Virus record (IMG/VR): IMGVR_UViG_3300042890_006148 | Coordinates: 1-64,000 of that record | Source: a virus | DNA: 64,000 nucleotides | Reading direction: 5' to 3' (one strand) | In this document: piece after piece, positions 3,082 through 22,905 of the stretch | Layout: each line of letters opens with the position of its first letter | How positions within the stretch are numbered: position 1 is the first letter of the stretch | Notes under the pieces: model-generated | What the model was told of the DNA's origin: nothing | The model's input: only the letters and a program-made list of their open reading frames with translations | The model's database searches: none | Translations under genes and position numbers: made by a program

Positions 3082-3936
3082 TTAGCTTACGGTAATTCTT
3101 GAAACTGCATAGTCATTGATGAGCGCAAAACCGAGCTCTTCGTAAACAACCCATCCGAGTCTAAGTCTCTTTGGATCGTCTGCAGGAAGAACAGTAATGT
3201 CTTGGCGAACTGGCATTGCACCAACGAATTGGGCAGGAGCAAGAACGTAAACACTGTTCTTAGGAACCATTGTGGAAACGTGGATGTCAGCGGAATAAAT
3301 ATGACCGTAAAGACCAGTCATAAGAATATCTCTTTGAGTTGCCTCATCGAAGAATTCCTTACCCCAGTTTCTGATATCCTTGTATCTTTGTGGGTGAAGA
3401 ACAACCTTAGCACCGATTAACTCGTGCTCTTCAATGAGGGTCAACGCAAGGTTGATATTCTCTGGTTGAAGAGTACCGGAAACGGAAATCGCTTGGTCAG
3501 TTGGAACACCAGCATTGATAACCTTGAAGACTTCAGTATCTTCTTGTCTTTGGAGGGAGTCCTTAGCACGGACTTGAGCTCTATCGACAATGTAGAATCT
3601 TCTTTGGCGGATTTCGTTCAATCTGATTTGTGGGTGTGCAGCTAATTCAACAGTAGGAACGAGAAGCTCTTCAGCCTCAACCTCAGCTGTTGGAACAGCA
3701 CCACGCTTAGGAATGACGTATGACTTAACAGCAACGTCTCTCTCATAGCGAGCAAGAGCGCCTTGTGGGAGCTCATCAACCATCAAAAGCTTGCGCCCGA
3801 TGGCTTGGTACATGAGGGAAGTCTTGATTGGCTCAACCATTGCTTGCGCAAGAGCTGTGCGTCCCTCTGGAGTCTCGAGAGCCATTGCAATAATGGATTC
3901 TCTTTGCTCATTTGTGTTTCTCTTAATCATTGACAT
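3082..3936 (-). CDS. major capsid protein (HK97-like fold)
   Basis: A 284-residue protein starting MSMIKRNTN with a good Shine-Dalgarno (AAAGGAG). It lacks a long N-terminal delta domain. It begins with a helical, charged region, followed by a segment (about 90-125) of the type LVPTVELAAHPQIRLNEIRQRRFYIVDRAQ, seen in the E-loop and spine region of large-phage capsid proteins. It ends in a beta-rich C-terminus with a VVYEELGFALINDYAVSRI strand typical of HK97-like shells. Context supports this: it is the last gene of the head block, after portal, protease and decoration protein, and has its own terminator. Codon choice is strongly biased toward C-ending codons compared with neighbours, as expected of a very highly expressed gene. 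Confidence 0.85.
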   Translation of the reverse strand: MSMIKRNTNEQRESIIAMALETPEGRTALAQAMVEPIKTSLMYQAIGRKLLMVDELPQGALARYERDVAVKSYVIPKRGAVPTAEVEAEELLVPTVELAAHPQIRLNEIRQRRFYIVDRAQVRAKDSLQRQEDTEVFKVINAGVPTDQAISVSGTLQPENINLALTLIEEHELIGAKVVLHPQRYKDIRNWGKEFFDEATQRDILMTGLYGHIYSADIHVSTMVPKNSVYVLAPAQFVGAMPVRQDITVLPADDPKRLRLGWVVYEELGFALINDYAVSRITVS

Positions 3937-4653: not shown

Positions 4654-6333
4654 CTAATCCTCGATTTTTGGCATTGTCCAGGTACCCTTCAAAGCACCTT
4701 GAATGTCAAGAGCTGCACTATTGTTGGATAAACCACCACTTAGTGCAGGAGATGTAGATACGCCTAATGTTGAAGCGGTTCTAGTACTCATTCTTTCAGC
4801 TGCTGCAGCTACAACCCTTTCGGTTGAAGACTGTGCGGACTTAAGTAAGAGTTTGGTTTGTCTGATCATTGAATCAGACTTAAGACCATCATTGATCATT
4901 TGTTCTGCATATGAATCAACTTCTTCAGAAGTAATAATTCCAGCTAATGCTAATTTAGTAGCACAGCTGTAAGAAGTCTTGACTCTTGCAAGATCAACTG
5001 CAGATGATTTGAGTTGATTTACAGTCTCATAAGCGTCATTCAATTCTACTTGAGTATCATTGATATTCTTTTGAGTATTTACATGTTGTCTAGTGTCAAC
5101 ATTTTGCGCTTCAACTTCTTTGTCTTTGGAGCCAGCGTTTGATGGGCAATCCTTATTTGCACAACGAGTTGCTTCATCATTCATTTCTGCTTCAGACAGT
5201 CTCATCGATGCACCACAAGAAGTGCATTCACAATCATGCTTTGCTTCTTCATCTCTGGATGCTGCAACTGATCTGGTGGTCTTGTGTGGCATTGAAGGCA
5301 TTTGTGTTGGGATTTGTGGATGCTCTACATCTTCTAATCCTGCAGAAGGATTTTCTAAATTGTCCCAATCAACTGTGTACTCTAATGAACCATCTCCAGA
5401 ACCTTCAAACTTTCCAGGCTTTGTGACTGAAGGGAATTGCAATGAACCTGGATTCATTGTAGGAACCTTTTGTTCAGCCCAAGTTGGATTTTGTTCCTTA
5501 AGTGAGTTGCCTTCACTACCTTGCATTGTCATGCTTGGATATTCAACTTCACCATCCATATCAACCATATCTTCGTTATACTTAAATGAGGCTGACGCTG
5601 GATAAGTTTCTTCTTCTGAAGCAATCTTCTTGAGAATTTCTTCTCTTTCAGCTCTTCTTAAAAGAGCTTCTCTCTGTGCCTTGCGCTCAGCCAATGCTTG
5701 TTTAGTCATTGATCTAACCTCTTTGCTTGTTTTCATAAATTGTTTTTCATTGTCTTCGTCATCATCTGACTCATGTTCTGAATCCATATCATCTTCATCA
5801 TCATTAAAATGAGTGATATCTTCATCATCATCTTCGTCAGAATCATCATCTCCGCCAAGAAGATTATCTAGCGCCTCTTGCACAGCTTTTTGTGCTTGGT
5901 CAACCATATCAGCGGGAACTTCAATCTCAAAAGTGGCGACATCATCACTATCTTCTACTTCGTCTTCGTCATCCATATCTTCATCAGACATGTCATCGTC
6001 ATCTACATCTTCTGAATCTTCATCACTCGTAAAGTGATGAAATTCCATATCATCTTCTTCATCATCAGATTCATCGTTTGCGAAGTCAACAGTCTCTTTG
6101 CCATGATCAAGGTCTAAATTTGAAACGTTAAGACCAGCTTGTCTTGCAATATTAGGAAGATATTTTGCTCTGATTGCTTTTGCGACAACGACAGCTTCAT
6201 TGGTATTCAAAGATGCTGTCTTTTCCATGTCGGAAGCGCAGTTCATAAGATCTTCCTTATCAGTTGCATTAATTTCAGCTAATCTCATTGCTGCAAATTT
6301 TCCCTGATTGGCTTTATTCGAATTTTTATTCAT
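4654..6333 (-). CDS. acidic head/scaffold-like protein with zinc ribbon
   Basis: The protein has about 559 residues. The ATG at 6333 is preferred to a TTG further upstream because it has a purine-rich AAGGGA ahead of it. Residues about 85-210 are an extreme Asp/Glu/Ser tract. This is followed by a charged helical segment with many Arg, Lys and Ala (ALAERKAQREALLRRAE), a polar linker, a zinc ribbon (CECTSC...C...C) near 365-390 and a C-terminal helical part with YSCATKLALAGII. Acidic coils next to the capsid gene are typical of scaffolding or core proteins, and the helical segments contain K-x-A-S sites that could be processed. No enzymatic motif is visible. Function is inferred from place and composition. 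Confidence 0.45.
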   Translation of the reverse strand: MNKNSNKANQGKFAAMRLAEINATDKEDLMNCASDMEKTASLNTNEAVVVAKAIRAKYLPNIARQAGLNVSNLDLDHGKETVDFANDESDDEEDDMEFHHFTSDEDSEDVDDDDMSDEDMDDEDEVEDSDDVATFEIEVPADMVDQAQKAVQEALDNLLGGDDDSDEDDDEDITHFNDDEDDMDSEHESDDDEDNEKQFMKTSKEVRSMTKQALAERKAQREALLRRAEREEILKKIASEEETYPASASFKYNEDMVDMDGEVEYPSMTMQGSEGNSLKEQNPTWAEQKVPTMNPGSLQFPSVTKPGKFEGSGDGSLEYTVDWDNLENPSAGLEDVEHPQIPTQMPSMPHKTTRSVAASRDEEAKHDCECTSCGASMRLSEAEMNDEATRCANKDCPSNAGSKDKEVEAQNVDTRQHVNTQKNINDTQVELNDAYETVNQLKSSAVDLARVKTSYSCATKLALAGIITSEEVDSYAEQMINDGLKSDSMIRQTKLLLKSAQSSTERVVAAAAERMSTRTASTLGVSTSPALSGGLSNNSAALDIQGALKGTWTMPKIED

Positions 6334-6449
6334 TTTTATGCTGCTTCCCTTAATAAAAATAAAATCTTTTATCAAAGAATTTATAAATTAGTTATTCATA
6401 AACTTTTTTTTATCTTCTAGATAACTTGTTTTTACACCTTTTTTCAAGC

Positions 6450-6482
6450 AAAATAGTGGGGGAATTATTCCCCCACTATTTT
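6450..6482 (-). terminator. terminator after protease-scaffold gene
   Basis: A perfect 13-bp stem (6450-6462 with 6470-6482), loop of seven, begins six bases from the stop of the large protease fusion. The GGGGG/CCCCC core gives high stability, and the 3' arm ends in TTTT on the minus strand. Confidence 0.8.
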
Positions 6483-6487
6483 GTGTA

Positions 6488-9400
6488 CTAATCTATCCAA
6501 GTAATGGATACATCAAGCTTTGATGGATCTTTCTTTGATGCTTGTACAGTTGTTCTTGAATAATTTCCACACTTGTAACAGAATGTATTATTCTTGACTT
6601 TATGTGCTTCTCTATCACCACAAGATGGGCAAACCATACCGACAGGAAGCATTGATTCTGCAGTTCTATCAAACGATGGTAATGCAGTCTTCAAATAGAC
6701 ATCAGAATCAACTGTAGCGGACAATCTAACCATTGTTCTGATATCAGAAGCAACTGGCCCCATTCCTGGAGCAGCTGGTGCAGGAGCTGGTAATTCAGCA
6801 GGAGCAGTTGCAGCACCCAAACCTGTATCAGGACCAAGACCCATTGGATCTTCTTCAGGTGAGGTTTTACCCTTATCACCCATTGAAATTAATTCAATTT
6901 GTTGAAGAATTTTGTATGTAGTTCCACAGCTTTGGCAGTCTGCATTTGATTCTGAAATATTTACATCATCAGCACCACAAACTGGACAAACAGAACCCCA
7001 AGGCTTCTTTTCACCAGGCTCTGTTACTGCATCCATATCTGCAGACTCATTCATGTCAGCGCCACCAGTAAGTGAAGAAATACCTAAATCGCCACCAGCA
7101 GGAGCACCACCACCCAAACCTGGATCAACTGGACCAGCTGCAGGACCTTGAGGAGCTGGAGCTCCCATTCCTGGCATGGCTTGTGCGTATTTCGCTAAAA
7201 TATCATCTCTTCTAGACTTTCTAGCTAATCTTGCACCCTCTGTCATTATAACTGGCATTTCTGCGTTATCTTCAACATTCATTTCAACAGATTCTTCGTC
7301 AGTTTTGAAAGTTTTTGAGGAAGATGTAGAAACTGTTGCTGTTACATCACCATTTTCAGAAACAATCAAGTCTGTGAATGAGAATGTGCCTGGATCAACT
7401 TGGAATCCATGTCCTTGAAGAACTTCAATAGCTTTTTGCTTGAAAGACTCATCAAAATTACTATCGCTTGGTTGTGTGCCATTTAGATCTTCAGCTCTAC
7501 ACATAAATCTAATACAATCAGACTTGCTTTGAGTTACAGTCATACCAGCTGTTCTTTCAGAAGCAACTACAGCCTTGGCAACAAGTTTCTGTGCAACTTC
7601 AAATTCTTCACAAAGTCTCTTTGCAGCCTTTGCAATTCTTCTTGTGCTAATTCCAAAATTTGTTGAATAATCTGCTAACCAACCAACAACATTTTCAGAA
7701 ACACTTTTAGTTGATGCAGTTTTGACACCCCAGAATTCTCTTCTAGCTCTTGATCTTAATCTTCCGTCAGTTGCTGTAGCTGTCTTTGCTCTATCGATAG
7801 CAGCCATTAATTGTTTTTCTGGCATTGCTTCAACAGAATCAACTACTTCATCAGGAGTTGTGCCAGTTTCTTTAGAGGACATTGCCATAGCAGAAATAGC
7901 AGACTTGAGATCATCTTTGGAGATAAGATCTACATCAGCATCTACAGCAGACATAAGTGCAGACTTGAGTTCTTCATTTTTTGAAGGTGCAGTTTCAACA
8001 TCCAAACCTTCTCCAGGAACAGATGCTTGACCCATAAGAAGTTCAGCGATTCTTGAAACGCCTTCTTTAGTCATTTCACCTTCTTCAACTGCAACTGAAA
8101 GTGCATCAGCAAGATCTCTAGCTGTGATTTCAGAAGTTACAGCAGCACCTAATTGCTTAATAACAGCGGAAACTGAATTTTCTGGTGAAGCATCTCCACC
8201 AAAGAAATCTACCTTTTCTGCTTTATCTGCTTCCATTTCTGTTCCAGCAGCAGCAGTTCCAATCATTTCTGGAAGCATTGGCTCTTCAGATAATGTTTGC
8301 GCAACACGAAGAATTGTTTTAGGAGTTTCTAGTGAAGAAATAACAGCCTTACCTAATGCAGTAATGGTTGCTGTCATAATTTCATTTGCACTAGCAGATC
8401 CTTCTGTGCGATGATTTGACAATTGCTTTTCTAAAATTTCAGTTGGAACACCGTGAGTAACTTCGTCAATTAATTGAGTTAAGGACTTACGAACTTCTTC
8501 ATCCTTTACTCTTCTACCATAAAGTCCAGCATCTCCAAGAAGAATTTCTCTTACACAATCTTGGCTTGCACCTGTTTGTTTAGGCTCTAATTGCTTCTCA
8601 CGAACTTCATTTACAGTGCCAGTGTTCTTTGATTTAACACCTTCATATAAATTATCATATGACTCACCGCCTCTGACTTCATTGAGTTGGCTCTCTCTGT
8701 CATCAAGTCTTTCTTTGACATCAAGCAAAGCAGTCTTGATAAAATGTGAGTAGTCCTTGAGCAATTCTGCAGCAACTCTTGTTCCTTGTCCATTTTCCAT
8801 TAAACCAAGTTGGTTTTCATTTAGGATAGGTTCCCAAGTAGTTCTTTTTCCATTTGTGTAACCCGTGATTGACCCGTCAGTAGAAAGAACAACTCTATTA
8901 CCTGCATTATCCTCGACTTTAAAATCGATTGTAACTGCAGCAGCAAGTTTTTTTCTTTGCTCTGATGCAATCTTTGCAAAGTGATCCATTTGATTTCTGC
9001 TCCCCGCCACAAAAGGCGTATTTGTTTTTATATTTTTGCTTCTCTCATTAGCAACTCTAATGACATTATCAATACTTTTTTGAATTTGAGCATCGTTGTT
9101 TAAATTTTCTTTTAAATTTAATATGCTTTGTGAAAAATTCAAAATTCTATTGGAAGATGAACTTTTTTGAGTACTAGCAAAAACTTCTCTTTTGCCGTCT
9201 CTTGAAGCCCAGACCAAATTGTGATTGCTAGAGGCTAAAGCAACACCGCCTCCAACTTGACTGCCTTGATCTCCAGAATAGGTAAGGTCCATTACCTTAC
9301 CTACAGATTCAGTTGGTGCATAATTAGCCAGACCAACATTTGCATTCATAGGAGAAGCTTGTGGAGCTTGCCCCTGTTGCATATTTTGAGGTTGATTGAT

Positions 9401-10624
9401 TTGCTGTGGTCTTTGTCCACTCCCAACATCAACTCCGTCGTCAATCATGTCCTGCATGGTAGATTGAAGTTCGGCCATTGATTTGGTGATTTTGCCAACA
9501 TGCCCTAAATCAACGTTATCTTTTCTTGCAAACATATTCATCACTGCAACTTCCAAGAAATTTAGTGATAAATTGATTAAGTCAAGAATGTTCAATCCAG
9601 AAGCAGGATCTATACCAAGCGCTGTCAATACTGCTTGAACAGTAGAATTTTGATTTGCTCCAGCTCCTGCTAATAAAGGACCACCAACAAGAGTGCCAGC
9701 TTGTTGTGCTAACCTTACTGCTGTTTTAGCTGTAGAATTTGCTACTCTTAAACAATTTTCGTATTCTGGTCTTATAGAAGATTCTAGTGGAGATCCTTGC
9801 AACGCTAAAACAATATTTGCAGAAAGTTCATTTGCTTTCTTTTCCAAATTCATTGCAGCGTCTAAAACATCATCGACATCATAAATTTCTTGAATTTCAC
9901 AAGATTCAAAAGCACCATCGCCTACACAGCTTAATTCAATAAACTTAACACCATAGTTCTTTTCATATGCTTTTTTGCCAGATTCAGGATAAATCTTGCC
10001 TTTATACTTCTTAAGATGTTCACAATAATCTCTTTCAGTGTATGCTTTATTACCACAAATTGAACAGACACCCCATTCAACACTTGCACCCATTGAAACA
10101 TCGTGAATTACGCCAGTACGAATATTTCTTGCAATATCAGGATAAGCTTCTTCATCTACGAAGAATGTGCAGTATACGCAATTTTCTTTTTCGTCCCATT
10201 CTGCGTAAACAACCATACCTTTAGCCTGTTCGATGTCGTCATTCTTATGATTGGTGTAAATTGGAACACCTTCAAAAGTCTTATAAGCTGGAATTTTTTG
10301 GCCTTTAATTTCAGCTTCTTTTAGGAGTTCTTCTTTAGAAAATAAGTCTCCATTAGCATTTACAACATCTGCATCGATTGCTCTAGCTCTAACCCATAAA
10401 AGTTTTGCACCTTTACGAGCTTGCATTTCTTTAACGATGTCAAAATCTTTGTATTTTTCTAGGACTTCTTTTGGATCAGCATATAGAGATTGAAGACCAA
10501 TTTTAGCAGCTTCTCTCATATTAGATGAAGCAGTCTTAATAATATAATCTCTAGCTATATTTCGGTCATTTTCGTTGAGAAAACTATTAATAGTAATAGC
10601 TCCTCCTTTTGCAACCTTGTACAT
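6488..10624 (-). CDS. prohead protease-scaffold fusion with terminal zinc ribbons
   Basis: A very long protein of about 1,378 residues. Start ATG 10624 has GAGG nine bases upstream. Residues about 75-245 form a head-maturation protease-like domain. It has an NANGDLF entry and His126 in TNHKND. The strand GMVVYAEWD is followed by Ser177 in the DVSMGASVE box, then a CSICG...C-x-H zinc knuckle (Cys187, Cys190, Cys201, His203) and an IELSCVGDGAF segment. Residues about 250-1,100 are long, helical and polar, as in scaffold proteins. The C-terminus has Pro/Gly-rich linkers and two zinc ribbons (CPVCG...CQSCG and CPSCG...CYKCG). It lies between portal and the acidic protein, the classical place for protease and scaffold. 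Self-processing is likely but not shown. Confidence 0.75.
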   Translation of the reverse strand: MYKVAKGGAITINSFLNENDRNIARDYIIKTASSNMREAAKIGLQSLYADPKEVLEKYKDFDIVKEMQARKGAKLLWVRARAIDADVVNANGDLFSKEELLKEAEIKGQKIPAYKTFEGVPIYTNHKNDDIEQAKGMVVYAEWDEKENCVYCTFFVDEEAYPDIARNIRTGVIHDVSMGASVEWGVCSICGNKAYTERDYCEHLKKYKGKIYPESGKKAYEKNYGVKFIELSCVGDGAFESCEIQEIYDVDDVLDAAMNLEKKANELSANIVLALQGSPLESSIRPEYENCLRVANSTAKTAVRLAQQAGTLVGGPLLAGAGANQNSTVQAVLTALGIDPASGLNILDLINLSLNFLEVAVMNMFARKDNVDLGHVGKITKSMAELQSTMQDMIDDGVDVGSGQRPQQINQPQNMQQGQAPQASPMNANVGLANYAPTESVGKVMDLTYSGDQGSQVGGGVALASSNHNLVWASRDGKREVFASTQKSSSSNRILNFSQSILNLKENLNNDAQIQKSIDNVIRVANERSKNIKTNTPFVAGSRNQMDHFAKIASEQRKKLAAAVTIDFKVEDNAGNRVVLSTDGSITGYTNGKRTTWEPILNENQLGLMENGQGTRVAAELLKDYSHFIKTALLDVKERLDDRESQLNEVRGGESYDNLYEGVKSKNTGTVNEVREKQLEPKQTGASQDCVREILLGDAGLYGRRVKDEEVRKSLTQLIDEVTHGVPTEILEKQLSNHRTEGSASANEIMTATITALGKAVISSLETPKTILRVAQTLSEEPMLPEMIGTAAAGTEMEADKAEKVDFFGGDASPENSVSAVIKQLGAAVTSEITARDLADALSVAVEEGEMTKEGVSRIAELLMGQASVPGEGLDVETAPSKNEELKSALMSAVDADVDLISKDDLKSAISAMAMSSKETGTTPDEVVDSVEAMPEKQLMAAIDRAKTATATDGRLRSRARREFWGVKTASTKSVSENVVGWLADYSTNFGISTRRIAKAAKRLCEEFEVAQKLVAKAVVASERTAGMTVTQSKSDCIRFMCRAEDLNGTQPSDSNFDESFKQKAIEVLQGHGFQVDPGTFSFTDLIVSENGDVTATVSTSSSKTFKTDEESVEMNVEDNAEMPVIMTEGARLARKSRRDDILAKYAQAMPGMGAPAPQGPAAGPVDPGLGGGAPAGGDLGISSLTGGADMNESADMDAVTEPGEKKPWGSVCPVCGADDVNISESNADCQSCGTTYKILQQIELISMGDKGKTSPEEDPMGLGPDTGLGAATAPAELPAPAPAAPGMGPVASDIRTMVRLSATVDSDVYLKTALPSFDRTAESMLPVGMVCPSCGDREAHKVKNNTFCYKCGNYSRTTVQASKKDPSKLDVSITWID

Positions 10625-10698
10625 ATATTCAATCCTCAAAAAATAAAGTTATCAATAGGATTTGTTCTATTTTTAACATATTAAAACCTGTAAAATTT

Positions 10699-10722
10699 AA
10701 ACCCGTCGAAATCGACGGGTTT
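10699..10722 (-). terminator. terminator after portal gene
   Basis: A 10-bp GC-rich perfect stem (10699-10708 with 10713-10722) with a four-base loop lies between the portal stop and the start of the protease fusion. TTTAAATTTT follows on the minus strand. Confidence 0.75.
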
Positions 10723-10749
10723 ATTGTACAGTGACAAACTATTCTTCAA

Positions 10750-13113
10750 TTATAGATATTCCGAATTCCCTTCACCCATACCTGTTCGTTTCTTTATTGC
10801 TTTTATAAGAACATTCAAACAATCTTGTGGATGATCGTTTATTTCTTTATCAGTAAATCTTACAATAATCCATCCATTTGCAGCTAGTTCAGAATCTCTA
10901 CGTTTATCTTTTGCAATTTTATCTGGATTGTTATGCCAAATTTCTCCATCTGCTTCTATACCAATTTTTAAGTTAGGAATTGCAGCGTCTAATTGATAAT
11001 CCATAGTTGGACCAGCAGAATATTGAGCATATAGAGGAAATGGCATATTTAAAGACATTGTCAAACCATATAATTTCTTTTCTAGGCCAGTAAACATTTT
11101 TGGCTGTTGTGCAACGTCTACTTTCTTTTTTGCATATTTTTTGATAGCTTCATTATCATTATTGGCAAATTGATATATTTCTTCCAGAGCATAATTATTT
11201 AATGGATGAGAATTATCTCCACCACAAAGTGGAATCTGTATTGAACCAAATAATCCATCATATTCACTTGGTAGAGGACCAAGAGAACCTCTACCAGTCA
11301 CTGGAGTCAAAGACATCAAGAAATATTCATGGGCAGCAGACTTAATTCTTTTACTAGCAGTTCTTACACTTGAATTTTTTGCATTAATTCTTTCATCATA
11401 AATTTCATTTATCGTTGCACTGGCTAGCTTGTAATTTTTAGTCATAGTTGATGCTGTTGGAGCAGGAGCAGCACCTGGAGCTGGAGGAGCGGCTGCTGGT
11501 GGTGGAGCAGCTCCGCCAACAGCTAAATCAGCAGGTGGAGGCGCTCCCATCCCACCTAACATATCTGTAGGTGCTGCCCCAAAGCCTTGTCCAGTAACGC
11601 CACCACTTTGAAAGCTTAATGAAACATTAGGAGTACCAAAATTTTGATCATTCATAAAGTTTGCACCTTGTTCAAACCTTAATCTTTCAATTTCTTGATC
11701 AGAATCTAAACCAAAAGCTTCTATAAGAGAAACATTTGATATAACACCATTTTGGTTTGCAGTGACAAGCATTTGAAGCTTGCCAGTATCATCTCGTAAT
11801 TGAAGATCGTCAAATTTAATTTTAGGATAAACTAATTCGTCTTGACCTCTTTCACCCTCAATTACAAAGCCATTCCATTTAGCAACTGGCATAAAAACAT
11901 TTTGCTCAATCCAGTGTGCAACTTCTCTTCTAAAAGTCTCTAATCTTTGAGCCATTGCAAGAAGACCAACTTGAGCATTGCCATAAGTTGGACCCTCACC
12001 ATTCAAGAGAGCTTTGTTGAGCATAACACCATCTAAAATTTCTTGCTCAATTAATTCAAATTCACCAGTGAGAGGATGAATTTTTCCTGTAGCTCCATAC
12101 CATTCAAGATCAAAATTGTGGTGAGTTACAAGAGTTAAGTTTGGATCATTTGCAATAGATGCCAATTCATCTTGAACATTGTCAATATCTTCTTGTGATG
12201 CTGGTCTTGTATCACTACCAATTTTTACAACCTTGATTGGTAAAATAAGACGCTCAGCAATCATATATTGAGCTTGACGTAGTTTATCTTTGTAAGTTAA
12301 AATTGGAAACAATGGTCTGATCATAGAAATTCCATAATCTTCCCAAGGGTTTGATCCGTATTTAAAATGATGAATAGAGATCGGATTAAGTTTGATAGGA
12401 TTTCCCTGGATAATCATCTTTTTGATATCATCAGGAATCTTGTCATAGACTTCTTTAGGATGTCTTTCATTTACAATTCTAGTTTCTTCTGCAGATGGTC
12501 TGTAAGCATAACTTCCAGGCTGATCAATCATGCCTGGGCTTTTAATTACAGAATCTGGATTAAGAATTGATATTGATTTCCAAGTTGCACCATCGTGTTC
12601 ACATTCTTGATTTTTATCATCGTCCCAGTTTGACCCTTGACAATGTGGACAATCAAGAGAAAGCAAAACAAATGAATCACCAAGTAAGTGATATGTTTTG
12701 GAAATTTCAGGAAGCCATTTTTGAAAGTTTAGTGATTCTACTAACTTTTCAAAATAGTCTTTTACGTAAGAAGAAGAACATTCTAATTTCCAACCAGAGA
12801 ATGGATAGTTGGTGTAAAAATTGACAGCTGCAGCAATTTTTGGTTCGTTATTTCTCCACCAGTTAGCCCAAAGATAAACTTCACGACGAGCATTTGGAAT
12901 TTGGAATGATGATGGAGTTAAAAATGGCGAATAGAAATTAGGAGCTGTCGTAACTGTATTTAAACTAGCAGTTCTTGTTACGCCTGGTCCTAAACCTAAA
13001 CCAATTCGACTGCTTGCATAATTTCTATCTACAGTTGATGAAGTTGTTGATGCTCCTGATACTTGTGTTGCTGCTGTTCTGATAGCAGAAGCCAAAGATG
13101 TTCTATTTGCCAT
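10750..13113 (-). CDS. portal protein fused to C-terminal DUF559/Vsr-like nuclease
   Basis: A 787-residue protein. The first about 500 residues are portal-like: an N-terminal WANWWRNNEPKIAAAVNFY segment, a clip/wing region with a CPHC...C-x-H zinc-like site near 155-175, and a stem/crown section ending LLNGEGPTYGNAQVG and RREVAHWIEQNVFMPVA. A Pro/Ala-rich linker (about 515-560) leads to a C-terminal domain (about 660-775). This domain has the DUF559/Vsr fold signature: a LEKKLYGL helix, Asp709 (YQLDAAIP), Glu720-x-Asp722-Gly (IEADG), His727, Asp740 (RRDSEL) and GW-IVRF. It is a probable PD-(D/E)XK endonuclease. The start has no obvious Shine-Dalgarno. The terminase nearby keeps its own nuclease motifs, so the extra nuclease is not a simple replacement. 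Confidence 0.88.
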   Translation of the reverse strand: MANRTSLASAIRTAATQVSGASTTSSTVDRNYASSRIGLGLGPGVTRTASLNTVTTAPNFYSPFLTPSSFQIPNARREVYLWANWWRNNEPKIAAAVNFYTNYPFSGWKLECSSSYVKDYFEKLVESLNFQKWLPEISKTYHLLGDSFVLLSLDCPHCQGSNWDDDKNQECEHDGATWKSISILNPDSVIKSPGMIDQPGSYAYRPSAEETRIVNERHPKEVYDKIPDDIKKMIIQGNPIKLNPISIHHFKYGSNPWEDYGISMIRPLFPILTYKDKLRQAQYMIAERLILPIKVVKIGSDTRPASQEDIDNVQDELASIANDPNLTLVTHHNFDLEWYGATGKIHPLTGEFELIEQEILDGVMLNKALLNGEGPTYGNAQVGLLAMAQRLETFRREVAHWIEQNVFMPVAKWNGFVIEGERGQDELVYPKIKFDDLQLRDDTGKLQMLVTANQNGVISNVSLIEAFGLDSDQEIERLRFEQGANFMNDQNFGTPNVSLSFQSGGVTGQGFGAAPTDMLGGMGAPPPADLAVGGAAPPPAAAPPAPGAAPAPTASTMTKNYKLASATINEIYDERINAKNSSVRTASKRIKSAAHEYFLMSLTPVTGRGSLGPLPSEYDGLFGSIQIPLCGGDNSHPLNNYALEEIYQFANNDNEAIKKYAKKKVDVAQQPKMFTGLEKKLYGLTMSLNMPFPLYAQYSAGPTMDYQLDAAIPNLKIGIEADGEIWHNNPDKIAKDKRRDSELAANGWIIVRFTDKEINDHPQDCLNVLIKAIKKRTGMGEGNSEYL

Positions 13114-13146
13114 AACATATATTATACCGTTCTAAAAATATATAAC

Positions 13147-13680
13147 TTAATACCAAGTTTGATTAGAAGGTTTGTTTCCAAAAAGGATAGGATCTTGCTT
13201 GCCTTTTAGTGCTTGATAATATCCTTCTCCATTCTTGAAATGTTGAAAACTATTACCTTTTTCTGTAGAAGCCATACTTTGTGGATCTCTATTATTATTT
13301 TCTTGTTGAGATCCTCTAAGTTGTTCTTCTAAGGTTGTTTCTTCTGGATTCTCGTGAAACGGAGAATGTCTACGTGCTTCATTCGATGCGGATTGTGGAG
13401 ACTTGATAAAATTTCCAGTGTTATCCATGGTCATTCTGTGAGGACGATCAACAAGTAAATCCCAAATTTCTTTTTGTTGAATTTGATTCATACTGTAATA
13501 TTCATCAAGTGTTTTGCCCATTTTTTCAAGAATGCCTGACAATTCATCATATAATCCAGCAGGTTCGTTGTCTACATCTCTAATGTTGTAAATTTCAGAA
13601 TTGTTTTGAGAATCAACTTTTTCTTCTTCTGAAAAATTAACACCACCACCAAATTGGGCCAAAACTTGCTTATACCACAT
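13147..13680 (-). CDS. unknown virion-region protein with MWYK N-terminus
   Basis: A 177-residue polar protein, not recognised. It begins MWYKQVLAQFGGG, an N-terminal motif also seen at the start of the proteins at 28243, 37081 and 39017. The remainder is rich in Asn, Gln and Glu, probably extended, with a helical stretch at about 45-80 (LYDELSGILEKMGKTLDEYY) and an EEQLRGSQ element like those repeated in the upstream neighbour. The start overlaps the upstream gene by 11 bases. It sits next to the portal gene, so a head or internal virion role is likely but not proven. Confidence 0.55.
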   Translation of the reverse strand: MWYKQVLAQFGGGVNFSEEEKVDSQNNSEIYNIRDVDNEPAGLYDELSGILEKMGKTLDEYYSMNQIQQKEIWDLLVDRPHRMTMDNTGNFIKSPQSASNEARRHSPFHENPEETTLEEQLRGSQQENNNRDPQSMASTEKGNSFQHFKNGEGYYQALKGKQDPILFGNKPSNQTWY

Positions 13681-15331
13681 CGTCGTATTCTTCTCTTTTA
13701 GATTCCATAATGTAGTCTAAACCAAGTTCATCAGCAAATCTTTTGAGATCTTCTTCTGAAAAATGATGACCTATACTGTCTTCATCTTCAGCATCTAAAA
13801 GCGCTTCAATATTTTTGGTAATTTTTGTATTTTGTCTTCTGTCTTCTAATTGCTTGTCTCTAGATACATCAACAACATTTTTCTTTCTGGTTTCATTGAG
13901 AATTTGTTCTTGATTCATTTCTTTTTTAGAAGCAGTAATATTTTTATCTAATTGATGAATAATAGAATCTTTTGGCTCATTTTTATTCTTATTCAATTCA
14001 TCTCTGTAATTGATTGGATCTTTACCCTTCACATTTAATTGATCAGCATAAGATTCTTCCATCTCACCACGATGATTGTAAAGACCATCAGAATCAAGTT
14101 GATTTTCTCTAACTTCATCTGTTACAGATTCTTTATCATTCAATTTCCTCAAAAGCATTTCAAGGTAATCTGTGCCTTTTTGATCTTTTCTTGGTAATTG
14201 TGAATCGATTGTCTTATTAGTGTCAGATTGAGCTTGTTTTGGGCGCATAACTGGCTTATCGCCTTGTTGATGACCATAGCTTGATTGTTTGGCATCTGAT
14301 AATTGTTTTTCTCTAGAATCATCGACATTTTGCTTGCCTCTGATTTTATTAGCGCCTCTATCTGAATTTTCAAATCTAGCTTCGAATCCAATTTCACCTT
14401 CAGTAAGTTTCTTGGATCTTTCGCCTTCTTTAAGCTCAAGGGCATTAGCTTCATTATCTGGATGTTTATGAACATCTAATCTTGCCATAACTTCATCATG
14501 TGATTGGAAAGCTACTTTGAGCCAATCTTGATATGCACAAGTAACGTGTCCTTCTTTATCAACTCTGGAGTCAATACAGTTCTCACGGCATTTTGAAATT
14601 TCCATAGGGATTGGAGATTTATATCCTTGAAATTTACCTTTAGGGCAAAGTAAATAAGGCTCATTTGCTTGTGTTGATAATGTTGTGTAAGCTACTCTTC
14701 TATTTTCTTTTGGTGTGATTTCTGAATACCAATTATGTAAATAGTTTGATACTTTAGTAGTTTGTAATTTGTTTCCTGATAAAACAACATTTCTAGCACT
14801 TTCAAGTTTAGAAATTCTCAAGGAAGTGGATGCAAATTTCTTGAGTTTATCCAAAGAATTGATGGCTTCGATTTGCCAATATCCAGCAGATTTATCTGTT
14901 GATTTGTATGCTACTCTTTCTAATCTGGCTGCTTCATTATTCTTGTTTAAAAAGTTTTGCAAAGCCATATATGCATAACGAAGAGTATTTCTTTCTTCTG
15001 CTAATTTTATATTATTCAATTTATTAAAAGCGTGATGCAAATGATGATGTGCTTCTTTTCCAGGAAGGGCGACAATCTTTACGATATTTTCTGGTCCACC
15101 CATATTTTTAAAAGCTGAAATTACTGGATCATCACCAAAATCATTCATATCTAAAACGTGAAAAGGAGAAGACATTGGCGTAGAATCACCATCTCCAAGT
15201 CCAGCAATTGTGTCTTGAAGCATACTAAGTAATCCAGTTCCGCCGACTAATGGTTTTTTATCCATAATGTCTTGAATTTTTTTAGGATCGTGAGTCTCGT
15301 ATGTAGCTTTGATTTTATATCCCTTGTCCAT
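13670..15331 (-). CDS. unknown head-region protein with REKQL-type repeats
   Basis: The protein has 553 residues. The N-terminal half (to about 290) is helical and ordered, with a cysteine cluster at about 222-262 (CPKGKF...SKCRENC...VTCAYQDWLKVA) that could bind metal. The C-terminal half is highly polar and carries a recurring short motif in which Arg or Tyr is followed by Glu/Asp, a polar residue, Gln and Leu: SREKQL, VRENQL, YADQL, IIHQL, SRDKQL, IDSQL. The same motif appears in the 6488 and 13147 proteins. No enzymatic domain is recognised. Position in the head block between portal and terminase suggests a virion or core protein; tethering by the repeats is a guess. Confidence 0.5.
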   Translation of the reverse strand: MDKGYKIKATYETHDPKKIQDIMDKKPLVGGTGLLSMLQDTIAGLGDGDSTPMSSPFHVLDMNDFGDDPVISAFKNMGGPENIVKIVALPGKEAHHHLHHAFNKLNNIKLAEERNTLRYAYMALQNFLNKNNEAARLERVAYKSTDKSAGYWQIEAINSLDKLKKFASTSLRISKLESARNVVLSGNKLQTTKVSNYLHNWYSEITPKENRRVAYTTLSTQANEPYLLCPKGKFQGYKSPIPMEISKCRENCIDSRVDKEGHVTCAYQDWLKVAFQSHDEVMARLDVHKHPDNEANALELKEGERSKKLTEGEIGFEARFENSDRGANKIRGKQNVDDSREKQLSDAKQSSYGHQQGDKPVMRPKQAQSDTNKTIDSQLPRKDQKGTDYLEMLLRKLNDKESVTDEVRENQLDSDGLYNHRGEMEESYADQLNVKGKDPINYRDELNKNKNEPKDSIIHQLDKNITASKKEMNQEQILNETRKKNVVDVSRDKQLEDRRQNTKITKNIEALLDAEDEDSIGHHFSEEDLKRFADELGLDYIMESKREEYDDVV

Positions 15332-15333
15332 AA

Positions 15334-16332
15334 TTATTTACCCAATCCTAAATTCGATAATTCTTCTTTATCAAAACCTCTATCTTTGAGAGCTGCTTTG
15401 AGTTGCTTTAATTCTTCACTTACGCCTTTCTTATCAGCAGCATCTTTGAAATCGCCTTGTTTTGTTGTTTTAGAATAATCTTGTAAATCCATAAGAAAAC
15501 AAGCTCTCATAATTAACTCAGGTGTAGATCTCTTTTCAAAATTAGGTTTTGCATCATAATTTAAAGAAGCAATTTTAACTGAAGCATTTTTATTGCCTTT
15601 TTCTTCAGTGTCATTAATCAACTCTATTGTTTCTTCGACATCTTTAGTTTTTTTCTCAACGTCTTCTTTTTCTCTAACTAATTTATCAAGATCAACAGTA
15701 TCTGCAGTTTTTTCTGACTTTTCTGATTTTTTTGGCTTATCGTCTTTATCTTTGCCTTTCTCAAGTTTTTTGTTGTATTCCTTGACAATATCGACAGCAC
15801 GTTCAATTGTTTCTTTATTCCAATACTTAAGTTTTGATATGTATCTAACTATGTCGCTTTTTTCAACACCGTGATCAAGCAATTTACCCACTTTACCCAT
15901 TAAAACACGGAATGGATTGCCTCTAGTTTTCTTTTTCTTTTTGACCTGTGCTGTTTTGGAATTGTTGTACACGTTCTTAGCCTCGAATAAATAAGTTTGT
16001 TCAATCTTATTTGCTATATCAGAATAGCTTGGATCCAATTCTTGAGTAATTGGATCTTTTGTTCTTGTTCTATTACTATTTGACATAAGTAGTGCTTTTG
16101 ATAACTTATCTAATTGATGTTTTAAATTTTTATCTTGCACTTTGTCTGCTATGACAGTAACTTCATTTGAAAGTTCACTGAAATTATCATTAGCAGATTT
16201 GACCTTATTCATTAACTGTCTCATTTCATCTTTTGTCACACCTTCGACACTTTCACCATTTAACGGAATATTATTAATTCCATTTGCCGGATTTGATGCT
16301 AAAGGTGGAGCGGTTTGAGACAGTTTATTCAT
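15334..16332 (-). CDS. unknown helical, lysine-rich head-region protein
   Basis: The protein has 332 residues and is not recognised. It starts MNKLSQTAPPLAS and ends two bases from the next gene. Residues 30-115 are predicted helical; a basic patch (VKKKKKTRG) lies near 128-136. This is followed by a compact segment (NPFRVLMGKVGKLLDHGVEKSDIVRYISKLKYW) that resembles a small helical bundle, then a Lys/Asp/Glu-rich coiled stretch (about 190-250) and a final helical part. The ASVKIASLNYD segment contains a K-[VTI]-A-[SQ] site like those at the ends of the proposed N-terminal tags. The start overlaps the upstream stop (TAATG), so the two genes are coupled. Confidence 0.5.
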   Translation of the reverse strand: MNKLSQTAPPLASNPANGINNIPLNGESVEGVTKDEMRQLMNKVKSANDNFSELSNEVTVIADKVQDKNLKHQLDKLSKALLMSNSNRTRTKDPITQELDPSYSDIANKIEQTYLFEAKNVYNNSKTAQVKKKKKTRGNPFRVLMGKVGKLLDHGVEKSDIVRYISKLKYWNKETIERAVDIVKEYNKKLEKGKDKDDKPKKSEKSEKTADTVDLDKLVREKEDVEKKTKDVEETIELINDTEEKGNKNASVKIASLNYDAKPNFEKRSTPELIMRACFLMDLQDYSKTTKQGDFKDAADKKGVSEELKQLKAALKDRGFDKEELSNLGLGK

Positions 16333-17147
16333 TAGTCAATATCATCAAAATTAACGTCAATGCTATTATAAATTTCATTAACAGTTTTTGCTCTTGATTG
16401 AGCTTTGTTACTCATATCACTTTGAATGTTTTTCTTGATTGCCATTCTTTCAGTTCTGTTCTTCTCTTGATTAGCAATTCTCATTGATTCACGATTGTCC
16501 AGAGCAGATGGATCAATCATTCCAAATGTTGAATTGAATTCATTATCTGAAGATGTTCTCAAGATAGAATGTGCTCTTGAAGAAACTACAGAAGATTGTC
16601 TTAAATTATTAATTTGGCTTTCTTCCCAAGCCTTATGACGAGTTGCCTTAGCTTCTCTCAATCTTTGATTTTCAACAATAGATTGTTCACTGGTCGAAGA
16701 TTGTGAATTCAAGAATTCTTCTGAAATTGAAATCATATCTGGGTTGAAAATAGATGCTGATCTTGAAAGCATAGCATTCATATATTCATCAGCCGAAAAT
16801 GCTTTTAGTCCACTAGTTGTAGTTCTTGCAGTTTCTCCATCGTCGAACTGTGATCCAGCTCTTCTAATAGCACCAAAATCTTGTGAAAGAATTCTATCTT
16901 CAAGTGTGGTGTCTCTTAAATCTTGATAAGTTGATGCACCTTGAATCTTTTCCCAAGACTTGTTAATATTGTTTGCTTCTTTTGTGAAACCAATATTTTG
17001 TTTAGAAATTGATTGTCTGTTTGCAGTTGAATTTCTCTTTAACTCAGCGTATGGATCTTCTTCAACTTCAACTTGAGCGCCAATAAATCTCTTTTCCAAA
17101 AATGTTGGAATATTATCGATTTCTGATACTTTTCTAAATCTGCTCAT
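16332..17147 (-). CDS. unknown polar head-region protein
   Basis: The protein has 271 residues and is not recognised. It is almost entirely hydrophilic, rich in Ser, Asn, Arg and Gln, with few hydrophobic clusters. The start MSRFRKVSEIDNIPTFLEKRF may form a short helix. FTKEANNINKSWEKIQ near 54-69 and a Ser-rich middle (about 130-175) follow, and the end is acidic (NEIYNSIDVNFDDID). Such low-complexity proteins in a head operon are often internal or scaffold-associated. The ATG is preceded by AGGA, and a hairpin lies just upstream. Confidence 0.5.
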   Translation of the reverse strand: MSRFRKVSEIDNIPTFLEKRFIGAQVEVEEDPYAELKRNSTANRQSISKQNIGFTKEANNINKSWEKIQGASTYQDLRDTTLEDRILSQDFGAIRRAGSQFDDGETARTTTSGLKAFSADEYMNAMLSRSASIFNPDMISISEEFLNSQSSTSEQSIVENQRLREAKATRHKAWEESQINNLRQSSVVSSRAHSILRTSSDNEFNSTFGMIDPSALDNRESMRIANQEKNRTERMAIKKNIQSDMSNKAQSRAKTVNEIYNSIDVNFDDID

Positions 17148-17180
17148 GTTTATTATATCCTGATATTACTTTTCAAGAAT

Positions 17181-17204
17181 GTCCCAGGACTTTCGCCCTG
17201 GGAC
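17181..17204 (-). terminator. hairpin upstream of the 16332-17147 gene
   Basis: An 8-bp GC-rich perfect stem (17181-17188 with 17197-17204) and eight-base loop lie 24 bases after the stop of the acidic His-rich gene. On the minus strand no long U tract follows; on the plus strand TATTTTT follows. Termination or mRNA end protection are both possible. Confidence 0.5.
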
Positions 17205-17228
17205 TATTTTTCTTGAGGATGGTAATTG

Positions 17229-18311
17229 TTACTTGTCGTATTTTTTGGTAAAGAGTGCATCAATCCACTCTTGATCGCCATAACCAAGTTCATTTTTCCA
17301 GTAATCGACAATTCTGGAATAGTCTGCGTCTGAAAGAGTTGCAACTTTAATCATTGAAGAAGCTGCAGCAACCTTTACATTTGTGTTTAGGTCAGAAGCA
17401 AGAACGTTCTTGATGTCGGATAATTTATCAACTGTAGGCGCTGATGTTTCACCTAATCTTGCGTTGATATATTCTATTGGAAAACCTTCAGCAAGAGCTT
17501 TAGCAGCAAATGCTTTTCTAGCAGCTGATGAGAATGCTTTAGCTTCTTTCATACTTGATTTGTCAGCACATTCACATTTCTTGCCTGCATAAACTCCGCC
17601 ACATTTTTCGCAAGATTTTTCCATAGCTGCTTCTTTCTCATCATCCATCTTAGCAGCAACTTTTTGAACCAATGATTCTCTGTAAGCTCTTCTTTGTGCA
17701 AGCTTCAAATTGGTTTCTTGTTGTGCTTGAACTTGGCGCTCAATTTTGCCAGCTAATCTAACTCTTCTGTCGTGACGAGCAGCAAGAATAGCTTCTTTAA
17801 GGTCTTCATCACCAGCAGCCACTGCAGCTTCTACTGCTTCAGCTGACAATTGTGATGCATGATTGAAATGATAAGCTTTCTTTTCAGACTTGGACTTAGG
17901 TCCTTTTCTAGTCATAGGACCTTTGTCAGCTTTTTCTTCTTCATCTTCATGATCTTCATGATCTTTATCATCATGATCTTCATCTTCAGAATCTTCAGAC
18001 TTCTTCTTGCCCTTGCCATTCTCTTCCATCCACTTCTTCAAGCCTTCTGGAAGGCCTTTTTTAGCTTCTTTCATATAACCAGACTTATGGTCCATTGAAG
18101 CTTCATCATGATCATCATGATCTTCGCCTTGCAATCTATCGATTTCTTCGTCACCAATAGCGTCAATAAGAGCTTTGAGACCCTTGTTCTCTTTTGGCTC
18201 TTTTGCTTCAGCTAATCTTTGGTTAAAGTTATCCCAATCGATTCCTTGAAATACCAAGTCAGAATCAAGAGGATCTTCTTGAAATCTGTTTGGGAAAATT
18301 CTATCTGCCAT
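17229..18311 (-). CDS. acidic His/Asp-rich head-region protein with zinc motif
   Basis: The protein has 360 residues. Two tracts dominated by Asp, Glu and His (about residues 62-78 and 105-128) could bind divalent metals. A helical Ala/Arg-rich part follows (about 150-225), then a CEKCGGVYAGKKCEC zinc knuckle near 235-250 and a globular-looking helical C-terminus (FPIEYINARLGE...DYSRIVDYWKNELGYGDQEWIDALF). The acidic-then-helical-then-zinc order parallels the 4654-6333 protein, so both may be core or scaffold components. The gene has a clear ribosome-binding site (GAGGAG). No enzyme motif is visible. Confidence 0.5.
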   Translation of the reverse strand: MADRIFPNRFQEDPLDSDLVFQGIDWDNFNQRLAEAKEPKENKGLKALIDAIGDEEIDRLQGEDHDDHDEASMDHKSGYMKEAKKGLPEGLKKWMEENGKGKKKSEDSEDEDHDDKDHEDHEDEEEKADKGPMTRKGPKSKSEKKAYHFNHASQLSAEAVEAAVAAGDEDLKEAILAARHDRRVRLAGKIERQVQAQQETNLKLAQRRAYRESLVQKVAAKMDDEKEAAMEKSCEKCGGVYAGKKCECADKSSMKEAKAFSSAARKAFAAKALAEGFPIEYINARLGETSAPTVDKLSDIKNVLASDLNTNVKVAAASSMIKVATLSDADYSRIVDYWKNELGYGDQEWIDALFTKKYDK

Positions 18312-18389
18312 AATTAATTTTTCTCCTCAAGAAAAAATACATTAAGAAAATTTCTAAATTTAATGCTCAAATTCCTTTAATGCATCCAT

Positions 18390-19262: not shown

Positions 19263-19273
19263 AATTTAATTCC

Positions 19274-20793: not shown

Positions 20794-22905
20794 TTATCGC
20801 CTATTTAGATTGACCATTTTTGATCTTGGTAATCTAATCATAATTTTTGAAGTAAGACATTCGTAAGCAACAGCAGCTACAGCATCACAAATATCGTCTT
20901 TGTAACCTGATAGAGCTTCAATGTAATATCTTTTACCTTTCCACTTCTTTTGTAAAAACAAAAACTGAATTTTAGCTTCTTGAATCTCATTCAAAGATAT
21001 CAATCTGTGATCTAAATCTCGATATTCACCACCAGATAAATCATAAATATCAATTCGGTCATCTCGAACTAGTTGAGAAAGTTCGGTATAAATTTTCTCT
21101 TTATATTCTTTATTGAATTGACGTTCTACGATAGGAATTCTTCGTGATTGTAAAGTTATAAGAGAGGATTGAGAATTCCATTGATCAATGCTTACTTGTT
21201 TAAATTTAAACTTTCTATGCAATTCAATTACATAATCTTCAACATCTTTTTCTTTAACGGGTTGATTTTTTGTTCTTGGATTCCAAAAATGAATGTGATC
21301 AATAACAACTCTTTTTAATGGCTGAAAATCAGGACCAATTTGACCATACATATTTTCTGTATGAGCAATAACAAGGGCGTAATAATCTGAAGTTCTTGCA
21401 GGATCTAAATGACAAAAATATTCAAAATGTCCTTCTGCTTGTTCTTTTCTTTTCACCATAGACATTGAAGAGAACATTCTGTCAACATCTTCAACATTGA
21501 ACATTGGGTCAGATGATGATGCACCAAACTCTGCACCATATTGCATTTGAAATTCTTGAGGATCTTTTTTCTTTTGACCGTCTAACCATTCTTTATCAAT
21601 GTTTGGATTAGTAAGCCAAGTTGGTAGTCTCATAACAAGTGTAGTAGGATCTTCTTGTCTATTCTCGTGCAAATCATAAAGTAACCCAAGAGGACCTTTG
21701 GGGTTGGAAAGAAGCATCATCTTTCCGTCTTTACCAAATGTAGCAAGAGATGGCTTCAAATCATCATAAAGAGCATAGTCAACACCAGATTCAGGATTGT
21801 CTCCTGCCATTGCTGCAACTTCGTCCATAATAATTGTCCAACAAGTTAAACCAACGAGACCTGAAGCATTACTAGAACCACATCGTAATACTAAAGAACC
21901 CGCAAAAAGATTGATATTTTGCTCTTTTCTTCTTACATTCTCTTCCCGGTCGTGTTCAGTGTAGAATCTCATTTCAAGCTCTGTATCTTTGCCAATATAA
22001 GGTGCAAAAAATGGAGAAGCTAAAACTGTTTGCTTGATTTTTGAGAAGATTGCTTTTTTAGCCTGTTCTTCATTACGAGCAACGTTGAGAATAACAACTT
22101 CATCAAATTCCATCAAACCATATCTTGCTTGAGGATGTCCCATAGAAATCAATCTATATAATTCATAAAGAGCCATAGCAGACACTAGGAATGATTTTCC
22201 TGAACGTCTGCCAAGTACTAAAACTAATTCTTCAAATTTATATCTTTTAGTGCATTTCTCTTGAACTTGCATTCTCAATTTTGGATCAAATTCTTCAGAA
22301 TAAAGTAAATCAAACTCACTTTGAAAACCATCAATAATTGGTCTTGCTTCTAATACTTCTACTTGTCTTTCTGCATCAGGGTTTGTAGCTTCGTCTTTGG
22401 CATATTTATATCTTTCTTCTCTAACATTATTATCAAGACGCTTACATTGCAAACAAGGAGAATTAACAACATTAAAAATTGTTTTAAATTGCTTACTTTC
22501 TGAACGAGATTTTAAAAATTCATTCTCATTCTTTTGAACATAATCCCAAACACACCCCTTGCAATCTTCTTGATTATCAGATTCATTGATTACAAGATTA
22601 GTATTGCCTTCTTGTCCCATATAAAAACACTTTAATATAAGTTTTTGCCAAGGATAAGGTCTTAGATTACAAAAATAGGGATGTTCGATAAATGTAATAA
22701 TATCTACAATTTGATCAGGATTAAATCTGTCTTTAGGTGGCTTTAATGGAGGAGCGACTTCTGATCTTGTGGCAGGAGCAATTTCGTCAACAAAATCATC
22801 TGCATATTCAGTACCCTTAAATAATTCTGTTACTGTATTGGCTTGTTGAAGTAATTGGTTTCTTAATTCTGTTGGAGATTTAGGAACTTGTGTTTGTTTT
22901 CTCAT
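20794..22905 (-). CDS. terminase large subunit (ATPase and nuclease)
   Basis: A 703-residue packaging motor. A Walker A-like GRRSGKS lies at 232-238 and Walker B with catalytic Glu at IIMDE (Asp361-Glu362). The RNase H-like nuclease shows Asp501 (HLDPARTSDYYA), Asp574 (VSIDQW) and Asp670/Asp671 (YKDDICDA). An insertion before the ATPase core carries Cys115-x-x-Cys118 and Cys151-x-x-Cys154, a probable zinc site that is not standard for the family. The protein docks on the portal and cuts and translocates DNA into the head. Its ATG overlaps the stop of the upstream gene (TAATG), so the two are coupled. Confidence 0.95.
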   Translation of the reverse strand: MRKQTQVPKSPTELRNQLLQQANTVTELFKGTEYADDFVDEIAPATRSEVAPPLKPPKDRFNPDQIVDIITFIEHPYFCNLRPYPWQKLILKCFYMGQEGNTNLVINESDNQEDCKGCVWDYVQKNENEFLKSRSESKQFKTIFNVVNSPCLQCKRLDNNVREERYKYAKDEATNPDAERQVEVLEARPIIDGFQSEFDLLYSEEFDPKLRMQVQEKCTKRYKFEELVLVLGRRSGKSFLVSAMALYELYRLISMGHPQARYGLMEFDEVVILNVARNEEQAKKAIFSKIKQTVLASPFFAPYIGKDTELEMRFYTEHDREENVRRKEQNINLFAGSLVLRCGSSNASGLVGLTCWTIIMDEVAAMAGDNPESGVDYALYDDLKPSLATFGKDGKMMLLSNPKGPLGLLYDLHENRQEDPTTLVMRLPTWLTNPNIDKEWLDGQKKKDPQEFQMQYGAEFGASSSDPMFNVEDVDRMFSSMSMVKRKEQAEGHFEYFCHLDPARTSDYYALVIAHTENMYGQIGPDFQPLKRVVIDHIHFWNPRTKNQPVKEKDVEDYVIELHRKFKFKQVSIDQWNSQSSLITLQSRRIPIVERQFNKEYKEKIYTELSQLVRDDRIDIYDLSGGEYRDLDHRLISLNEIQEAKIQFLFLQKKWKGKRYYIEALSGYKDDICDAVAAVAYECLTSKIMIRLPRSKMVNLNRR

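Follow-up and report, generated by a model that had tools for sequence, protein, structure and literature searches.

The stretch of viral DNA analysed here, hereafter the window, comprises the 64,000 nucleotides at positions 1 to 64,000 of IMG/VR record IMGVR_UViG_3300042890_006148, and the gene under study joins a phage portal to a C-terminal nuclease. The gene is a single uninterrupted open reading frame (ORF) of 787 codons on the minus strand (10,750 to 13,113), and the source record, of 83,235 bases, contains a single match to it, free of internal stops. The fusion gene lies within the head module, with the terminase on one side and the protease and major head protein on the other, and a gap of 110 bases separates it from the protease gene. 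The protease domain encoded by that gene is 39% identical over 158 columns to gp19 of Bacillus phage G, and the window also carries replication genes for ribonucleotide reductase, RecJ, RecA, DNA polymerase III alpha with PHP, and DnaB. This replication gene set and the likeness of the protease to gp19 are consistent with a large relative of phage G.

The N-terminal part of the protein is matched by portal families in two collections, PF06074 at 33.4 bits (cut-off 23.9) and the PHROG portal family phrog_16240 at 5.2e-33, and portal structures rank first both in Foldseek (E down to 5.7e-9) and in VIA (Z up to 17.6, residues 69-441). Fold and family assignments together span residues 66-457, which are predicted to have the fold of a tailed-phage portal, and in the AlphaFold model helices close the portal part at residue 486. 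The full-length model was poor, with a mean predicted local distance difference test (pLDDT) score of 57.4, and no conclusion was drawn from it on the mutual placement of the two domains. No structure was matched by VIA to residues 491-670, which is not evidence for a new fold.

The C-terminal part is a nuclease of the DUF559/MTES_1575 type. DUF559 matches the whole protein at 28.4 bits against a cut-off of 20.6, and MTES_1575 scores 37.5 bits on the whole protein, just below its cut-off of 38.2, and 39.7 bits, above it, on the isolated domain; these matches cover residues 704-773, and each of the 24 homologous domains searched matched the two families (E ≤ 0.01). When the C-terminal 210 residues were modelled separately with AlphaFold, the mean pLDDT was 71.7, with blocks of 74-90 over model residues 51 to 200, and the best structural matches of this model were NGO0050 (3hrl; Z 10.9, 2.0 Å, 93 aligned), the homing enzyme I-Bth0305I (3r3p; Z 10.8, 2.4 Å, 96 aligned) and E. 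coli Vsr (1cw0; Z 8.8, 2.3 Å, 100 aligned). Weaker matches were to mitoribosomal proteins (Z 6.0-7.9), which we take to be of the RAP type, to the FASTKD4 RAP module (7.7) and to TnsA (6.1), and the best Foldseek E value for this model was 3e-4. The modelled domain has a PD-(D/E)XK, Vsr-like fold. The Vsr likeness was seen in the fold; no Vsr-named family was listed among the Pfam matches up to E = 1, though filters drop weak matches. Asp709, Glu720, Asp722, His727, Asp740 and a GW-(x3)-RF stretch are invariant in 35 of 35 aligned proteins, and across 27 divergent sequences D709, E720, A721, D722, H727, D736, R739, D740, W748 and R752 are all unchanged. The nuclease domain is probably catalytically active.

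A preliminary description of the locus, made from its letters, had proposed a portal body, a Pro/Ala linker and a C-terminal nuclease domain, and had listed the same five acidic and histidine residues with a GW/RF motif. This architecture is borne out by the family and fold matches above and by the linker itself, which at about residues 491-556 is rich in proline, alanine and glycine, of low model confidence and fast-evolving; the residues are present as written, and both the structure prediction and the DUF559 profile search that had been suggested as checks agree with the proposal.

Five scans for relatives, four over viral contigs and one over genome contigs, yielded 80 contigs of the lineage besides the record of the window (L002-L070, L072-L077, L142, L150, L152, L161 and L170). 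One scan contributed the best 80 of its 83 matching stretches (69 loci) and another the best 80 of 91 (77 loci), and the weaker matches may include portals without the nuclease. Many of the 80 contigs are near-identical and some hold only a partial portal; they do not count as independent lineages. Portal and nuclease share a single frame in 72 of the 80; seven end before the C-terminus and one, L062, has a TGA in the linker. Among contigs that reach the C-terminus, the fusion is therefore one ORF in 72 of 73, although some of these ORFs begin inside the portal part. Both parts share a frame in L062 as well, where they are split by the one in-frame TGA (7681-7683), which may reflect an error of sequencing or a genuine split between portal and nuclease; the first start-like codon past it is a TTG at 7744. 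An assembly error or an artificial joining of two genes, which had been named as the observation that would overturn the description, is excluded by these counts and by the shared frame of the remaining contig, and the reality of the fusion is as good as certain.

The fusion is also present in records of 300-441 kilobases (kb), and in 11 of 11 large relatives (120-379 kb) exactly one MTES_1575 match was found, with coordinates inside the portal gene. Identity to the window is as low as 46% in the portal and 39% in the nuclease, in L152, so the fusion predates the divergence of the two. Conversely, the nuclease is absent from all 12 closed portals classified outside the lineage, namely those of phage G (under two locus identifiers), seven G-like contigs, LR745208, Rctr197k and Vibrio phage D69, and an MTES_1575 search of the whole phage G genome found none. 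When 50,697 deposited phage records were searched, 196 matched the portal and none covered 80% of the fusion protein; the nuclease part matched 33 deposited records, none of them annotated as a portal (helicases, endonucleases, methylases, hypothetical and unannotated proteins). Judged from these sequences, the fusion is old and fixed in an environmental lineage of giant bacterial viruses.

Both domains have been kept under constraint. In 12 chosen pairs of relatives, the pooled ratio of nonsynonymous to synonymous differences (pN/pS) was 0.045 for the portal and 0.060 for the nuclease, against 0.208 for the linker, 0.160 and 0.233 in two stretches from the linker to the nuclease, and 0.178 in the N-terminal tail. 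Purifying selection on the nuclease is thus nearly as strict as on the portal. The features of the locus are collected in Table 1.

Table 1. Coordinates of the portal-nuclease gene, its parts and the neighbouring head genes in the window.
Feature	Position	Strand	Evidence
Whole portal + linker + nuclease fusion protein, 787 residues	10750..13113	-	ORF list; Pfam; relatives
N-terminal tail, residues 1-65, low-confidence; residues 12 and 47 have motifs resembling [KR]-x-A-[SA]	12919..13113	-	pLDDT, motif scan
Portal body, residues 66-490	11644..12918	-	Pfam, PHROG, Foldseek, VIA
Pro/Ala/Gly-rich linker, residues 491-556	11446..11643	-	pLDDT <50; pooled pN/pS 0.208
Candidate maturation-protease site 1, residues 562-565 (KLAS)	11419..11430	-	Pattern in 23/27 homologues
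Candidate maturation-protease site 2, residues 584-587 (RTAS)	11353..11364	-	Pattern in 16/27
Candidate maturation-protease site 3, residues 591-594 (KSAA)	11332..11343	-	Pattern in 13/27
Vsr/DUF559/MTES_1575-type nuclease domain, residues 675-779	10777..11091	-	Pfam, fold; pN/pS 0.060
Active-site Asp709	10987..10989	-	Invariant in 35/35 and 27/27 alignments
Active-site core, residues 720-727 (E720, D722, H727)	10933..10956	-	Invariant 35/35, 27/27 divergent
D736-x2-R739-D740 helix	10894..10908	-	Invariant in 35/35 and 27/27 alignments
Head maturation protease domain (residues about 57-249) in 1383-residue protein, next gene	6488..10639	-	PHROG 1e-21
Terminase large subunit	20794..22905	-	Pfam, PHROG; own nuclease residues kept
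Major head protein	3082..3936	-	PHROG 2.4e-68

The place of the nuclease in the particle can be anticipated from portals of known structure. Statements given here with a PMC number rest on parts of the source named. In known portals the C-terminus forms a crown that faces the capsid and touches inner proteins and DNA (PMC8703570), so the nuclease should face the head interior, away from the terminase. By this analogy it would very probably be found inside the head.

We tentatively favour, as a whole, a model in which the portal carries a built-in nuclease that would be freed by a protease in the head, ejected with the DNA and active after ejection, though we hold it as somewhat less than an even proposition. 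Judging from portal anatomy, about twelve Vsr-like nucleases would reach from the crown into the interior of the head, each on a flexible linker. The neighbouring gene's head maturation protease might then cut the portal just past the linker, at motifs of the form [KR]-x-A|[SA], and the freed nuclease would stay loose near the portal inside the head. At infection it could leave with the DNA or just ahead of it and cut host or competing DNA, while the DNA of the phage itself would be protected by modification, by sequence choice or by control of the enzyme. Degradation of host DNA and action at genome entry had both been raised in the preliminary description, and both are possible. Within this model, release of the nuclease by the protease, suggested by sequence motifs, is to us the more plausible part, though slightly under even odds, and ejection to act in the host is somewhat more doubtful.

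The suggested cleavage at the linker is indirectly supported by the [KR]-x-A-[SA] motifs that lie just past it, which we tentatively read as maturation-protease sites. The motif was defined by eye from the window after a few phage G proteins had been seen; the strict pattern counted was [KR][ILVTFSYM]A[SA], and expected values were obtained by shuffling. Across 27 divergent portals, the stretch at residues 557-674 held 56 motif sites against 2.0 expected, with at least one in 24 of the portals, and the N-terminal tails held 20 against 3.0 expected, in 14 of the 27 homologues. The nuclease domain held one (1.6 expected) and the linker none. Y561 is invariant in 35/35 and 27/27 sequences and A564 in 35/35 and 26/27, within a stretch that is otherwise poorly conserved. 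Beyond the portal, the 13 head-region proteins of the window (3082-20759) held 20 motifs against 3.9 expected, and 15 chosen head-region proteins of phage G (gp5-gp26) held 12 against 2.1; a set of 30 control proteins chosen from phage G held four, with 2.6 expected. With a looser pattern counted per protein, the major head protein had none and the terminase one against 1.2 expected, so neither is enriched. The phage G portal has the motif near both ends, at residues 55 and 625 (KIAS) of 648. These sets were chosen by hand: the other window proteins mentioned below are ORFs of at least 150 residues, with ORFs 70-552 and 836-1648 left out; the phage G head set omits gp6, gp10, gp13, endolysins, gp24, gp25 and the major head protein gp27; and the phage G controls come from a 49-kb stretch with 67 features. 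Herpesvirus assemblin cuts Ala-Ser bonds. The proteases of T4-type phages and of herpesviruses are homologous (PMC5694885), a prohead protease cuts the portals of the giant phages SPN3US, phiKZ and 201phi2-1 (PMC10052503, PMC5694885), and serine after the cut is also favoured at SPN3US sites in the portions of these sources consulted.

Several points weigh against reading the motifs as cleavage sites and against the model built on them. The folded portal body also has the motif in 21 of the 27 portals (21 against 3.5 expected), around a conserved K92, and no site past the linker is universal, the pattern being found at residue 562 in 23, at 584 in 16 and at 591 in 13 of them. Three of the 27 portals scanned, L152, L161 and L170, have no motif from the linker to the nuclease. 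The 35 other window proteins are enriched as well (15 against 5.6 expected), so the signal is not restricted to the head module, and the phage G test was not blind, as the motif was chosen after the data had been seen. The known portal cuts remove N-terminal propeptides and fall after glutamate rather than alanine (PMC10052503, PMC5694885), and the T4 portal is uncut (PMC5694885). The conserved block past the linker may instead be a helix with another job. Finally, a DNase set free next to packaged DNA would have to be held in check, and no evidence of such control was seen, although no search was aimed at it.

A bolder form of the same idea makes the portal an effector carrier, with twelve nuclease copies freed at A|S, ejected against the DNA of the host or of rival phages, and the portal C-terminus serving as a delivery slot that is filled otherwise in sister lineages. 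We regard this form as possible but unlikely. In L153, a G-like contig, the portal carries a different C-terminal extension of about 400 residues (7501-8751), in which no Pfam family scored above its cut-off; the extension shares 30% identity (E 2e-33) with a stand-alone ORF that lies right after the portal in L156 (7482-8495). Because of this likeness, the portal C-terminus appears to have taken up domains more than once, and on these comparisons it may be a recurrent fusion slot.

The close rival to protease release and ejection is a head-morphogenesis nuclease bound to the vertex, on the portal or in the head, which would trim ends, flaps or branches of the phage DNA, for example, while it is packaged or afterwards, as has been proposed for gp4 of T4-like phages; we think it unlikely in absolute terms, and yet a serious contender. 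T4-like phages have in gp4 a virion-associated, TnsA-like nuclease of the restriction-endonuclease (REase) fold that is reported to be required for packaging (PMC7824862). The portal nuclease is fixed and single-copy, as expected for a structural function, and it has no immunity-like gene beside it in the 110 bases that precede the protease gene. Searches of six large relatives and of phage G, with T4 as a positive control, gave no match to the gp4 family phrog_218, so that the post may be vacant, but the records of the relatives may be incomplete. On the other side, the portal nuclease belongs to a family different from that of gp4, and phage G, in which these searches found neither phrog_218 nor a portal nuclease, is a sister phage that manages without either. 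Identity with gp4 itself was rejected, as neither phrog_218 nor phrog_14892 is among the PHROG matches of the window portal (E ≤ 1) or of two relatives (E ≤ 0.001).

A delivered antibacterial or anti-competitor toxin, comparable to the MuF toxins of temperate phages, is improbable. MuF proteins are head proteins, that of SPP1 binds the portal, and nucleases are present in more than half of 191 putative MuF toxins, which are proposed to be delivered with the DNA (PMC5576092). The effector here, however, is a single conserved family rather than a polymorphic one (24 of 24 domains; 72 contigs), and the short gap to the protease gene leaves no room for a downstream immunity gene. Pfam searches gave no MuF domain for the window protein (E ≤ 1) or for four of its relatives (E ≤ 0.1), and identity as a MuF toxin was rejected on that account.

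Hardly better placed is a catalytically dead or RNA-directed domain of the Vsr fold, a binder of nucleic acid like the RAP domains. The best of the FASTKD4 RAP module and the mitoribosomal proteins come within about 1 Z unit of Vsr, but NGO0050 and I-Bth0305I score higher than these RAP rows by about 3 Z units, and neither His727 nor any of the acidic active-site residues varies among the 27 divergent sequences.

Cutting at packaging termination had been suggested in the preliminary description, and this suggestion, taken here together with that of a headful cutter, is not supported; we now consider it very unlikely. The nuclease does sit on the portal, and the head-full signal passes through the portal (PMC9958956). 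In T4, however, the terminase binds the portal clip and makes the termination cut there (PMC9958956), whereas the nuclease is expected on the crown side (PMC8703570), inside the head. The accompanying claim that the terminase keeps its own nuclease was upheld: D501, D507, D574, D670, D671 and D674 are kept in all eight sequences compared (the window and seven relatives), their catalytic role being presumed from TerL motifs. Given the crown position and these intact residues, a second cutter for packaging termination is unlikely.

A selfish, homing-type nuclease stuck to the portal gene is disfavoured to the point of being scarcely credible: I-Bth0305I is among its closest solved relatives and a PADLOC homing-endonuclease profile matches at 2.1e-5, but presence at one fixed place is near-universal and not patchy (72 of 73 contigs reaching the C-terminus), and the clear mobile elements in the portal gene are LAGLIDADG inteins at two loci; on both grounds a mobile element was rejected.

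Those two portals (L150, 5788-9312; L152, 3101-6652) have an in-frame, LAGLIDADG-containing, intein-type insert in the portal body, upstream of the nuclease. By eye, the terminases of L193 and L194 have intein-like inserts exactly at the Walker A site, and in the protease genes of L142 and L152 an intein-like stretch can be seen to begin. Vibrio phage D69 has, immediately ahead of its distant portal homologue, a gene (L081, 5396-5995) that is annotated as a homing endonuclease. The protease gene of the window is itself unusual in that a tail of about 1100 residues is fused to the protease domain, with Cys pairs like those of zinc ribbons near the C-terminus (Pfam matches weak, under the cut-off).

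One relative was found in a bacterial assembly. JAFDWS010000002.1, a contig of 1,363,254 bases from an Armatimonadetes metagenome-assembled genome (L161, L162-L169, L172-L190 and L198), has the portal-nuclease at 145 kb and the terminase at 165 kb, with tRNA genes clustered at 516-520 kb. In the stretches sampled, its fraction of guanine plus cytosine is about 0.50-0.57 from the first base to about 531 kb and about 0.60 thereafter. In L170, a viral contig of 478,840 bases, the portal is 88% identical over 446 residues. The phage region of JAFDWS010000002.1 is a giant prophage, or else the contig is a chimera of assembly.

Portals belong to the most conserved proteins of phages and, to our knowledge, are not known as enzyme carriers. 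Both parts of the fusion are known families, and their fixed fusion on the portal seems to be undescribed within the literature and records searched. By title and abstract opening, no paper among those listed in the open-licence literature searched concerns a portal-nuclease fusion; in a review that brings up portals and DUF559, the DUF559 concerns another protein. A paper on the phage G tail is silent on the portal. The arrangement could put a nuclease inside every virus particle, and it raises the question of how a DNase coexists with packaged DNA, with head completion or genome entry as its possible setting. The motifs also suggest an Ala-Ser type of maturation-protease specificity in giant phages related to phage G, which, if true, would indicate where proteins throughout their heads are processed and make other packaged proteins easier to find.

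Among known systems, the nearest for the portal part is gp14 of Bacillus phage G (Donellivirus gee), 28.8% identical over query residues 1-486. Phage G has the same gene order, portal then protease (gp19), and its portal shares with the window a proline-rich stretch past the crown and the KIAS motif near the C-terminus; it differs in ending about 20 residues past KIAS, without a nuclease. The DUF559/MTES_1575/Vsr-like nucleases share the fold of the portal nuclease, in whose own family a D-(x10)-E-x-D core and an R-D helix are conserved; at the position of His727, I-Bth0305I has alanine, and NGO0050 has a histidine two residues off, beside an alignment gap. T4 gp4 is likewise a REase-fold nuclease tied to the head (PMC7824862), but it is a separate protein of a different family. 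MuF toxins resemble the fusion in having a nuclease at the C-terminus of a portal-linked head protein (PMC5576092), whereas here the nuclease is on the portal itself and belongs to one fixed family, with no MuF domain found. SPN3US, phiKZ and 201phi2-1 provide the precedent for a large portal extension in giant phages, which in their case is removed by the prohead protease according to the portions consulted of the sources given above; their extensions are N-terminal and cut after glutamate, whereas that of the window is C-terminal and, if cut at all, probably cut after alanine.

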